Assembly (NCBI GenBank): GCA_023511295.1
Contig: JAIMBT010000026.1
Coordinates: forward strand, 1 to 53,914
Origin: Alicyclobacillus sp.
GTDB lineage: Bacteria > Bacillota > Bacilli > Alicyclobacillales > Alicyclobacillaceae
Direction: 5' to 3'
Length of the DNA: 53,914 nucleotides
A model generated the notes under the pieces. That model was not told where the DNA came from. It did not search any database and saw only the letters and a list, made by a program, of their open reading frames with translations. The position numbers were made by a program, and so were the translations under genes. Shown here piece after piece: positions 16,792-33,303 of the stretch; within the stretch, counting starts at the first letter, position 1; each line of letters starts with the position of its first letter.

Positions 16792-17337
16792 ATGGAGCAG
16801 CTTGAAAAGCAGTGGTACGTCATCCACACGTATTCCGGCTACGAGAACAAGGTGAAGACGAACCTCGAGAGCCGGGTGCAGAGCATGGGGATGGAGGACA
16901 AGATCTTCCGCGTGCTCGTACCGACGGAGGATGAGCTGGAGATCAAGAACGGGAAGAAGCGCGTTGTGCAGCGCAAGGTCTTTCCGGGCTATGTCTTGGT
17001 CGAGATGATTATGACCGACGACTCGTGGTACGTCGTGCGGAACACACCGGGGGTCACAGGGTTTGTCGGCTCCGCCGGCGGCGGTTCCAAGCCGGTTCCG
17101 TTGATGCCCTCAGAGGTGCACGCCATCATCCGGCAAATGGGTGGAGAGGAAATGCCCGTGCGCGTCGACTTCTCCGTTGGGGAAGTGGTTCGCGTGGTGG
17201 ATGGCCCGTTCGCCGACATGGTCGGCAACATCGAAGAGATCAGTGCAGACCAGCAGAAACTGAAGATCCTTGTCTCGATGTTTGGTCGTGAAACACCCTT
17301 GGAAATGGACTTCTCGCAGGTCGAGAAGCTCACCTGA
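16792..17337 (+). CDS. nusG: Transcription termination/antitermination factor NusG
   Basis: A 181-residue RNA polymerase-binding factor that modulates pausing and couples transcription to translation. The NGN domain ([15 protein letters not shown] to the FVGSAGG loop) is followed by a C-terminal KOW domain starting near residue 127 ([19 protein letters not shown]). ATG 16792 is the only start that includes the conserved N-terminus. Its purine-rich ribosome site GAGGAGGTG (16763-16771) is about 20 nt upstream, unusually far. A small GGGC/GCCC hairpin (16774-16786) lies between and may shorten the distance. Confidence 0.96.
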
Positions 17338-19916: not shown

Positions 19917-19946
19917 AAAGGCACGCGAGGGCGCGTGCCTTTTTTC
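19917..19946 (+). terminator. Strong intrinsic terminator after rplL
   Basis: A 10-bp stem (19918-19927 / 19932-19941), GC-rich with an AGGG loop, leads into a run of T through 19945. It separates rplJL from the rsmC-like gene and the rpoB promoter. Confidence 0.9.
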
Positions 19947-20021
19947 CGTCCCCGGGGTGGATGCGTATCTCCGCGCTGGGCGGCGGGCCGCAGGCCGTTG
20001 CCGTGGTGGAGGGGATTGCGA

Positions 20022-20618
20022 TTGTCGGACCACTACTTCGCGAACCAGCCAGACGTTCCAAGCCACCCGCGCGTGGTGCGGTTTGACATCGGCGGCCGAG
20101 CATTTGCACTGATGACGGACGCGGGTGTGTTCTCCAAGTCCGGGCTCGACTTCGGGACGCGTGTGTTGTTGGAGACGGTCCAAGTGGTCCCGCCCGACGG
20201 CCGTTTCGTGGATCTGGGTTGCGGCTATGGACCAGTTGGCGTGGTGTTGGGGACGCTCTACCCGGCGTCCGCGTGGACCATGGTGGATGTGAATGCGCGA
20301 GCCGTCGAACTGGCCAGGGCCAACGTGGAGCGCCACGGGGTGGCGGCGCAGGTGGTGCAGGCGGACGGCGTGAAGGGGCTTGGACTGCGGGAGGTGGACG
20401 GAGTCTTCCTGAATCCGCCCATCCGCGCCGGAAAAACCGTGGTCTATCGACTGTTCGCGGAAAGTGCCGAGGTGCTCCGAGAAGGCGGCGCGTTGTGGGT
20501 GGTCATCCACAAGAAGCACGGCGCCGCCAGCGCGCAACGTGAACTGGAACTCCGGTTTCGATCCGTGGAGCTCGCAGACCGCAAGTCCGGTTACCACGTC
20601 TTTCGCTGTCGCGCGTGA
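20022..20618 (+). CDS. Class I SAM-dependent methyltransferase, RsmC/YbxB-like
   Basis: A 198-residue methyltransferase of the YbxB family, related to the C-terminal half of E. coli RsmC (16S G1207). Visible motifs are the YbxB-type N-terminus SDHYFANQPDVPSHPR, DAGVFSKSGLDFGT, SAM motif I VDLGCGYGPVG and the catalytic NPPIRAGK. The target base in Firmicutes is inferred only from the family. TTG 20022 lies 7 nt after GGAGGGG and gives MSDHYFANQ. It stands between rplL and rpoB as in B. subtilis. No own promoter is clear; it may be reached by read-through from rplL. Confidence 0.92.
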   Translation: MSDHYFANQPDVPSHPRVVRFDIGGRAFALMTDAGVFSKSGLDFGTRVLLETVQVVPPDGRFVDLGCGYGPVGVVLGTLYPASAWTMVDVNARAVELARANVERHGVAAQVVQADGVKGLGLREVDGVFLNPPIRAGKTVVYRLFAESAEVLREGGALWVVIHKKHGAASAQRELELRFRSVELADRKSGYHVFRCRA

Positions 20619-20650
20619 CCGTTCGTCGTGTCTGGACTATCCATTGACAG

Positions 20651-20679
20651 TTGACACGAGTAGACCGTTGTGATAAAGT
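20651..20679 (+). promoter_or_regulatory. SigA promoter for rpoBC with extended -10
   Basis: TTGACA (20651-20656) and TAAAGT (20674-20679) are separated by 17 bp, with a TG-A extended -10 element at 20671-20673. A second TTGACA directly precedes it (20644-20649). The predicted start near 20686 gives a leader of about 155 nt. Confidence 0.7.
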
Positions 20680-20761
20680 AAACAAATGCAAAATCCAACG
20701 TATCGGACGGGGATGAATAAAGTTATTGCGGATTGGGTATAGGTGAATATTACGTTTATGT

Positions 20762-20800
20762 GAAAATGTGGTTCCAAGCAACCTCATTTCTTTTTTGTTT
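20762..20800 (+). terminator. Terminator-like hairpin in the rpoB leader (candidate attenuator)
   Basis: Arms 20762-20773 and 20780-20790 pair with one T-T mismatch and one bulged A. The loop is CCAAGC, and TTTTTTGTTT follows immediately. It lies downstream of the rpoB promoter and 42 nt before the rpoB start, so it would act within the rpoBC leader. The stem is AT-rich at its base and moderate in strength. Confidence 0.55.
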
Positions 20801-20841
20801 GATCACATATCGAAACATCATCAGCGTGAGGGGTGACGCAT

Positions 20842-23800
20842 TTGCAGGGACACATGGTCAAGTACGGGTGGCGTCAGCGCCGCTCCTACTCGCGCATTCA
20901 CGAAGTACTCGACCTGCCGAACCTCATCGAGATCCAGCAGAAGTCTTACGAGTGGTTCTTGCGGGAAGGGCTTCGGGAAATGTTCGCGGACATCTCGCCC
21001 ATTCAGGACTTCACAGGGAACCTCGTGCTGGAGTTTGTCGACTACAGTCTGGGTGACCCGAAGTACGATGTCGAGGAGTCCAAGGAGCGCGATGTCACGT
21101 ACTCTGCGCCGCTGCGTGTCAAGGTGCGCCTGCTGAACAAGGAAACCGGCGAAGTCAAGGAACAGGAAGTGTTCATGGGCGATTTCCCGCTGATGACGTC
21201 GACCGGCACCTTCATCATCAACGGTGCTGAGCGGGTGATTGTCAGCCAGTTGGTCCGTTCCCCGAGCGTGTATTTTAACAGCAAGATCGACAAGAATGGC
21301 AAAAAGACCTTTGCGGCAACCGTCATCCCCAACCGCGGTGCGTGGCTGGAATTTGAGACGGACGCGAAGGATGTCGTGTACGTCCGCATCGACCGCACCC
21401 GCAAGCTGCCCATCACCGTTTTGCTTCGGGCGCTCGGCCTCGGAACGGACGCCGAGATCATCAACCTGCTCGGCGAGGATGAGTATCTTCAAAACACCTT
21501 AGACAAAGATACCACAGATTCGACGGAACGCGCGTTGGTGGAGATTTATGAACGCTTGCGTCCGGGTGAGCCTCCGACCATTGAGAATGCGCGCGCCCTG
21601 CTCGCATCCCGGTTTTTCGACCCGAAGCGGTACGACCTCGCGAACGTGGGCCGCTACAAGATCAACAAAAAGCTGCACATCAAGAACCGATTGCTCAACC
21701 AGCGGTTGGCGGAGACGTTGGTGGATGTCGATACCGGCGAAATCATCGCTGAGGCGGGTCAGATCATCGACCGCCGTCTGCTTGACAAGATCATTCCTGC
21801 GTTGGAAGGGAATGTGGGTCGGTTCAGCGTTCGCGCAACGCCGGAATTGACGGGGGAAGACGACATTCCTCTGCAGATGGTGAAGATCTTCAGTCCGACG
21901 GAGGATGGGCGGGTTCTGAACGTGATCGGCAACGGCGTGGTGCCGCGCAGCATCAAGCACATCCTGCCCTCCGACATCCTGGCATCGGTCAGTTATTTCT
22001 TCAACCTGTTGCACGGCGTGGGGACGACGGACGACATTGACCATCTCGGGAACCGCCGGCTGCGTTCGGTTGGTGAACTGCTTCAGAACCAGTTTCGCAT
22101 CGGGTTGTCCCGGATGGAACGGGTGGTTCGTGAGCGCATGTCCATCCAGGACGCGAGCGCCATCACGCCGCAGGCACTCATCAACATTCGACCGGTGATT
22201 GCCTCCATCAAGGAGTTCTTCGGGTCCAGCCAGTTGTCGCAGTTTATGGACCAGACCAACCCGCTTGCCGAACTCACGCACAAGCGCCGTCTGTCGGCTC
22301 TCGGCCCGGGCGGTTTGACGCGGGAACGCGCCGGGTTTGAAGTCCGCGACGTGCACTACTCGCACTATGGCCGGATGTGTCCGATTGAGACGCCGGAAGG
22401 CCCGAATATCGGGCTTATCAACTCGCTGTCGACCTACGCCCGAATCAACGAGTACGGGTTCATTGAGACGCCGTACCGGCGGGTCGATCCCGATACGGGC
22501 GAGGTCACTTCCCACATCGACTACCTGACGGCGGACGAAGAGGAGAATTACATCGTCGCCCAGGCGAACGCGGAGTTGACGGAGGACAACCGGCTCGCGA
22601 GTGAGGAGGTCGTCGCTCGGTATCGCGGCGACACCCTGATGGTGCCGCGCGAGCGGATCGACTATATGGACGTCTCGCCGAAGCAGGTCGTCTCGGTGGC
22701 GACGGCGATGATCCCCTTCCTCGAAAACGACGACGCGAACCGTGCGCTGATGGGCTCGAACATGCAGCGTCAGGCGGTGCCGCTGTTGGTTCCGCAAGCG
22801 CCGGTCGTGGGTACGGGCATGGAGCATCAGGCAGCGAAGGATTCGGGCGTGTGCGTCGTCGCCAAGCGCGGTGGCGTCGTGGAACGGGTTACGGCGCGGG
22901 AAATTTGGGTGCGCACCTACCACGAGGTCGACGGAAAGCGCGTCAAGGGCGACCTCGACAAATACCGGTTGTTGAAGTTTCTGCGTTCGAACCAGAACAC
23001 CTGCGTGAACCAGCGGCCGATTGTGCACGAAGGTCAAGAGGTGCGAGCGGGCGACATTTTGAGTGACGGTCCGGCGACGGAGATGGGTGAGCTCGCTCTC
23101 GGCCGCAACGTGCTCGTCGCGTTTATGACCTGGGAAGGATACAACTACGAAGACGCCATCCTGCTGTCCGAGAAGGTCGTCAAAGAGGATGTGTACACCT
23201 CCCTGCACATCGAGGAACATGAGCTGGAAGCGCGGGACACCAAGCTCGGGCCGGAAGAGATCACGCGAGACATCCCGAACGTCGGCGAGGACGCCCTGCG
23301 CAACCTGGACGAGCGCGGCATCATCCGGATTGGCGCCGAGATTCAAACGGGCGACATCCTAGTTGGTAAGGTGACGCCGAAGGGTGTTACCGAGCTGACA
23401 GCTGAGGAACGATTGCTGCACGCAATCTTCGGCGAGAAGGCCCGTGAAGTTCGGGATACGTCGCTTCGCGTCCCCCACGGTGGCGCCGGCATCGTCGTCG
23501 ATGTGAAGGTGTTCACGCGGGAGAACGGAGATGAGTTGCCGGCTGGGGTGAATCAGCTTGTGCGCGTGTACATCGCGCAAAAGCGGAAGATCTCCGAAGG
23601 TGACAAGATGGCTGGCCGTCACGGGAACAAGGGCGTCGTCGCGCGCATCCTGCCCGAAGAGGACATGCCCTTTATGGAAGATGGGACACCGGTAGAGATT
23701 GTGCTGAACCCTTTGGGTGTGCCGTCGCGTATGAACATCGGTCAGGTGCTGGAAACCCACCTTGGGATGGCGGCGCGTGCACTCGGCATACACATCGCCA

Positions 23801-24372
23801 CGCCGGTGTTCGACGGGGCGCGAGCAGAGGATGTGTTTTCGACCCTCGAGGAAGCAGGCTATGCGCGGGACGGGAAGCACAAGCTGTTTGACGGGCGTAC
23901 CGGCGAGCCCTTCGACAACCGCGTGACGGTGGGCTACGTCTACATGATGAAGCTGCACCACTTGGTCGACGACAAAATCCACGCTCGTTCCACCGGCCCG
24001 TACTCCCTCGTCACGCAGCAGCCGCTCGGTGGGAAGGCGCAGTTCGGCGGGCAACGGTTCGGTGAGATGGAAGTGTGGGCGCTGGAAGCGTACGGTGCAG
24101 CGTATACGTTGCAGGAGATCTTGACTGTCAAGTCCGACGACGTCGTCGGGCGTGTCAAGACATACGAAGCGATTGTCAAGGGCGAAAACGTTCCGGAACC
24201 AGGTGTGCCGGAGTCGTTCAAGGTGTTGATCAAGGAGCTGCAGAGCCTTGGTATGGACGTCAAGATTCTGAGCGAAGACGAACAGGAGATCGTCATGCGG
24301 GAGAGTGACGATGACGACGATACCGGGGAGAAGCTGAACCTCAACCTCGAAAGCCGCGAAATCGGAGACTGA
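20842..24372 (+). CDS. rpoB: DNA-directed RNA polymerase subunit beta
   Basis: A 1176-residue beta subunit. Colinear family blocks include [40 protein letters not shown], the rifampicin region [20 protein letters not shown] with RLSALGPGG, and the conserved C-terminal clamp region. The residues usually changed in resistant mutants (Q, D, H, R and S in that region) are wild type. TTG 20842 lies 5 nt after GAGGGGTGA and aligns with the B. subtilis start (LQGHMVKYG versus MTGQLVQYG); GTG 20833 lies within the ribosome site. It has its own promoter and an AT-rich leader. Confidence 0.98.
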
Positions 24373-33164: not shown

Positions 33165-33303
33165 TTCGACTGTTGGTCTCTGACAGCGATGAGGCGGAAG
33201 GTTGCTCACGTGTCCTTGCCATATGGGCACCACTGAGGTAGTTTCCGTGGAGTATGTCCAAGAATTGGGCGATGGCACGTCGCGTACGACGCGGCCGCCC
33301 TGA

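Follow-up and report, generated by a model that had tools for sequence, protein, structure and literature searches.

The rpoB gene in this Alicyclobacillus genome is preceded by a leader that probably acts as an attenuator dedicated to rpoB, keeping a portion of rpoBC transcription in check; we put the likelihood of this reading at roughly 0.6. Between the rpoB promoter and the gene lies an imperfect hairpin followed by an interrupted T-tract, within a leader that is conserved among relatives and whose matches, when the whole element is modeled, are found only upstream of rpoB. From these observations we infer, most strongly, partial termination near position 20796 and, beyond termination itself, a dependence on Nus factors and an autogenous logic in which the leader may sense the status of RNA polymerase or its Nus factors. 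To our knowledge, how the level of RNA polymerase is set in Gram-positive bacteria is poorly understood. An early terminator that is confined to rpoB and conserved across many Bacilli families allows a direct test of whether elongation and termination factors mediate autogenous control.

In the window, by which we mean the whole 53,914-nt stretch of DNA analyzed, the genes run in the order nusG, rplK, rplA, rplJ, rplL, a methyltransferase-like gene, rpoB and rpoC, as named from their translations; the promoter, leader and rpoB features described below are all on the + strand. A GC-rich terminator-like hairpin followed by T6 (19918-19946) lies after rplL and sets rplJL apart from the rpoB unit, which makes it probable that rpoB relies on a promoter of its own. 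That promoter (20651-20679) is near-consensus and sigma-A-type, with a -35 TTGACA, a 17-nt spacer and an extended -10 TGaTAAAGT. Positions 20000-21000 contain one promoter-like site versus 0.3 expected in shuffles, and the same kind of promoter is present in 133 of the 135 rpoB leaders scanned, the window's included. The rpoB gene itself (20842-24372) likely starts at a TTG, with an in-frame GTG at 20833 and a TTG at the equivalent position in the relatives that we inspected by eye; its ribosome-binding site, GAGGGGTGA (20828-20836), is similar in relatives. Elsewhere in the window, an S10-Clostridia ribosomal protein leader (RF03136) is matched at 33181-33272 of the + strand (38.3 bits, with a cut-off of 35.1), here in a genome of the class Bacilli.

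The leader extends for about 155 nt, beginning at approximately 20685 and reaching the likely TTG start (20842), and is, as the initial annotation stated, far richer in A and T than the sequence around it; it is the most AT-rich place in the window. Its GC content is 39.7% versus 60.8% for the window as a whole, a value as low being found in only 5 of 4136 segments of 156 nt in a window-wide scan, and all such segments with a GC content of 45% or less start at 20605-20722, the rpoB leader locus. The compositional shift had also been taken to mark a segment unlike its surroundings: the shift is real, but it is not a mark of foreign DNA. A foreign AT-rich insert is ruled out by the leader's orthology and by the AT-richness of relatives' leaders, the first 125 nt being AT-richer than the end of the upstream gene in 34 of the 35 Alicyclobacillaceae leaders measured.

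Several blocks of the leader are conserved. The putative transcription start (approximately 20685) falls at a conserved box, AAUGCAAA (20685-20692), which carries the motif AATGY at a fixed distance from the -10 element; AATGY is found at this same distance in 127 of the 133 promoter-bearing leaders (135 scanned). An alignment of 17 Alicyclobacillaceae leaders (A2) defines GGACGG together with box B, GAUGAAUAAA (20705-20721), and box C, AUAGGUGAAUA (20739-20749), the likely counterpart of which in the sister family is AAUAGAAGnAUAUU (alignment A3). In alignment A2 the arms and tail of the terminator hardly change, while the spacers vary in both length and sequence. The whole conserved element (20685-20806) scores 116.5 bits against R2, a model of the entire leader. 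In Paenibacillus-type loci among L066-L139, the transcript-start sequence AATGTCAG is nearly repeated as AAATGTCAAG about 40 nt on, with a ACGTATAAT block coming next in most aligned leaders (both by eye); consensus structure prediction on 44 de-duplicated Paenibacillus 5' leaders gave no structure.

The terminator hairpin (20764-20789), AAAUG-U-GGUU / CCAAGC / AACC-U-CAUUU, contains a conserved U.U mismatch and is matched at 54.7 bits by the short terminator model R1 (20762-20801). Directly after it comes the interrupted T-tract CTTTTTTGTTT (20790-20800), composed of C, six T (20791-20796), G and TTT, and the tract joined to the hairpin foot reads TTTCTTT, of the TTNTTT type. The hairpin had originally been placed at 20762-20790, which is correct to within 2 nt, and the six T followed by GTTT noted with it are present at 20791-20800. 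Hairpin and U-tract thus sit between promoter and rpoB start, the position of an attenuator, and the 3' end of the attenuated transcript is predicted near 20796.

As judged from sequence comparison, the case above chance for this terminator is one of conservation, not of hairpin energy. Against shuffled sequences, neither the folding energy of the hairpin (z = -0.94, with 38 of 200 shuffles as good) nor that of the whole leader (z = +0.25) exceeds chance, and a simple terminator scan did not include the leader hairpin among its listed sites. Pairing across relatives is far more regular: in 13 aligned symmetric terminators, 117 of 117 cells are paired, versus 30-64% when the arms are slid, and a single pair has both partners altered, a number matched by 303 of 500 shuffles. 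Across 43 terminators, native arms average -7.84 kcal/mol, and re-dealing the arms gives -6.30 +/- 0.30, with none of 2000 re-dealings as good, a fit that is helped by relatedness, as this set was chosen by 5' arm without de-duplication; chimeric arms made within families are also weaker than native ones (-6.99 versus -7.84 kcal/mol).

Comparison of leaders among relatives, a check that the initial annotation had itself suggested, supports the terminator-like attenuator proposed there. The hairpin is present in 28 of the 38 Alicyclobacillaceae leaders examined, a tally made up of 27 of 36 plus L166, which has it, and L060 (identical to L159), which does not; it leaves out two genomes of genus group g5 (G063 and G064), and one further family genome (G012) gave no rpoB match. 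All ten leaders that lack the hairpin belong to g5 and keep the promoter, and three further g5 leaders carry the hairpin. A hairpin that is not conserved where the promoter is, which had been named as evidence against an attenuator, is therefore what is seen in these ten of 38 leaders, and not in the other 28. Among the hairpin-less ten, L029-L034 have a GC-richer candidate hairpin further on, before a T-rich stretch. In g5 loci including L019, L025 and L029, GCATCGTCCAA lies just upstream of the rpoB ribosome-binding site and is complementary, apart from a single bulge, to TTGGACGGATGC of the 5' leader (both by eye), perhaps pointing to translational control in this genus. Beyond the family, the hairpin is found by motif in 14 of 17 sister-family leaders, of which model R1 (E<=0.05) recovers just 5 of 17, and R1 also matches 12 of the 25 leaders taken from other Bacilli families, a set that includes one stretch (L204) in which rpoB was not seen. 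The remaining leaders of those families have in some cases other hairpins and in some none, for example L215, L220 and L221 (by eye).

The complete leader element occurs only before rpoB. Model R2, built from Alicyclobacillaceae only, gave 31 matches at E<=0.01 in 299 Bacilli genomes, all 31 directly 5' of rpoB, and a single match in the leader's own genome at E up to 10. Full-length R2 matches reach the sister family, Tumebacillus, Hazenella and three further families (17 chosen sources), with weak or partial matches on L055 and L205. The short model R1 gave 48 matches at E<=0.05, of which 29 are tied to rpoB; the other 19 compare with the roughly 15 that this limit would yield by chance. The promoter-plus-AATGY pattern is present in 206 of the 299 genomes, versus 5 for a reversed control pattern, and falls within 700 nt 5' of rpoB in all 78 genomes placed on both coordinate lists. 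These 78 genomes hold 15 extra matches elsewhere than rpoB; five of them, together with one match in another genome (G096), were inspected, and, with the genes named by inspection, four of the six lie before rpsF, one before guaA and one before a tRNA cluster. In family f23 (L225, L226, L227 and L230), a promoter-AATGCGAG pattern precedes a gene reading as rpsF, and the genomes of this family carry Brevibacillus-like rpoB leaders.

The terminator has the features expected of stimulation by NusG. NusG-dependent terminators of Bacillus subtilis share weak terminal A-U or G-U pairs, an interrupted U-tract and a TTNTTT motif (PMC8060035), and the window terminator, which reads AAAUG...CAUUU-C-UUUUUU, matches them in its AAA/UUU foot, interrupted U-tract and TTNTTT. 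The main text of that study names no rpo gene, and the likeness is one of features alone. Of 43 leader terminators, 41 carry TT[ACG]TTT in the tail, versus 3 of 22 gene-end terminators of the leader's own genome at a limit of -8 kcal/mol and 5 of 30 at -4 kcal/mol, a contrast that is fairest for the window and its family because the leader set includes AT-rich genomes. Three weak terminal pairs occur in none of these controls (0/22 at the -8 limit and 0/30 at -4), and a hairpin GC content as low as the leader's occurs in 1 of 22. The controls were drawn from 388 kb of the genome, window included; the -8 limit would shut out the leader's own hairpin, and the -4 limit gives the same direction. 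NusG itself, encoded at 16792-17337, contains WYVVRNT, which places Tyr, Asn and Thr at the spacing of Y77, N81 and T82, residues whose change abolished pausing (PMC8060035). Given the weak A-U foot, the internal defect and the TTNTTT-type interrupted T-tract, NusA and NusG most likely stimulate termination at the leader hairpin.

We propose that RNA polymerase, starting near 20685 from the near-consensus promoter, would reach the imperfect intrinsic terminator after about 105 nt, where a fraction of complexes would stop near 20796, with rpoBC mRNA made only by those that read through. The conserved 5' boxes, seen only before rpoB, would probably set how often termination occurs, and stimulation by NusA and NusG would make rpoBC output track the elongation state of RNA polymerase itself. 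Since the element occurs only before rpoB, we favor control by something specific to RNA polymerase. Two pairings were considered as antiterminators. An alternative S1:S3 stem in the sister family shows no covariation signal, with 490 of 500 shuffles scoring at least as high, and is unsupported in this role. An outer stem around the terminator is lineage-limited (Stouffer -2.79 in 19 family leaders, a value driven by a few of them, and -0.82 in 22 others) and was set aside as a general feature. No conserved antiterminator emerged from these comparisons, and the conditional read-through implied by the initial annotation is a hypothesis.

Deep conservation of the 5' boxes would also fit a leader that binds a metabolite, as a riboswitch, or a protein, with the boxes serving as the receptor through which the terminator is opened or closed. 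Consistent with such a receptor, 95% of cells are paired in the 5' stem of the sister family, versus 44-59% in slid versions of the whole structure, and two of its pairs show changes in both partners, a number that 47 of 500 shuffles also attain. Unlike many riboswitches, however, the leader precedes no gene other than rpoB in its 31 R2 matches, and no alternative pairing is supported; we consider this reading unlikely. A conserved weak terminator that lacks an antiterminator could also be accounted for by a constitutive brake, in which termination at a fixed rate merely sets promoter output and releases a short RNA without any regulator. This account leaves both the conserved boxes A-C and the conserved mismatch unexplained, and appears improbable.

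A near-leaderless uORF of 18 codons (20686-20742) begins with the AUG at +2, raising the idea that a leader peptide governs the terminator. In the window, as in several relatives, this frame closes precisely on the UAG of box C; a strict count that missed some box C sites finds this in 14 of the 52 leaders from the two families (more by eye). A conserved uORF was nonetheless rejected, as frame, start or stop is broken in several lineages (for example L007, L012, L014, L024, L025, L027, L048 and L052); in other Bacilli the same AUG leads into frames of differing and often very short length (by eye), and we saw neither a well-placed Shine-Dalgarno site nor a regulatory codon run, making leader-peptide attenuation very unlikely. 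We likewise see little chance that the hairpin does not terminate and instead stabilizes or processes the 5' end of rpoB mRNA, or that a short RNA acts in trans. The outer stem, which encloses hairpin and T-tract, lends this idea something in individual leaders (p of 0.033 in the window, 0.007 in L002, and below 0.003 in L014 and L016, from shuffles), but it is not general, and processing would not need the TTNTTT-type tail that is kept in 41 of 43 leaders.

A broader history can be sketched tentatively, at well below even odds: an ancient, rpoB-only leader present across the class Bacilli, with a Nus-sensitive terminator through which polymerase would co-transcriptionally meter its own beta and beta' subunits, and with Lacto-rpoB (RF01709, Lactobacillales), the closest RNA in the catalogue, as one branch. 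Lacto-rpoB entered a table in 2010 (PMC2864571); it has since appeared with predicted promoter and terminator signals in a Streptococcus agalactiae census (PMC6064168), as expressed in an Enterococcus faecium map (PMC7724050), and among detected 5'-UTR small RNAs tabulated for Streptococcus pyogenes (PMC6431027). At the gathering threshold no Rfam family matches the window's rpoB leader, and at E up to 5 six leader loci gave just sub-threshold matches to unrelated families and none to RF01709. With its 40-bit cut-off, the Lacto-rpoB model finds nothing in the window or its genome. It has matches in 18 of 299 genomes, none of them Alicyclobacillaceae; those over the cut-off fall in 17 genomes, all of one genus, and one sub-threshold match in another family is intermediate at 34.3 bits. 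The final stretch of all 17 copies (L282-L298) is the 5' arm of a strong terminator, AGCAGTTAAATC..GATTTARCTGCT-CTTTTTGTG, and their tail, CTTTTTGTG, resembles the Bacillales CTTTTTTG/CTTTTTGTC.

Like the window's leader, Lacto-rpoB is an rpoB 5' leader just after the promoter; the stem and terminator sequences of the two are unlike. Shared UGUC/UGAAAU boxes, seen by eye, and the 34.3-bit intermediate suggest homology, but with no RF01709 match the window's leader is best called a Bacillales counterpart of Lacto-rpoB, not a member. On sequence grounds its form appears absent from Rfam, with related rpoB-leader forms in several other Bacilli families. In the literature that we searched we came upon no account of a terminator in the rpoB leader of Bacillales, though one may be given by Boor et al. 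1995, a study of rpoB in B. subtilis; the main text of Naville and Gautheret (PMC2965389) does not name rpoB. With leader-peptide attenuators such as that of Mycobacterium tuberculosis ilvB1 (PMC13236596), the window's leader shares a terminator between promoter and gene, and differs in having no conserved uORF or regulatory codons. On our reading, a plausible role also emerges for Lacto-rpoB, an RNA that is catalogued but has no explanation. In Escherichia coli, an attenuator between rplL and rpoB causes partial termination before rpoB within one operon. Partial termination in front of rpoB is likewise predicted in the window, where, unlike in E. coli, rplL is followed by a GC-rich terminator and separated from rpoB by a methyltransferase-like gene, and a promoter of its own precedes rpoB.
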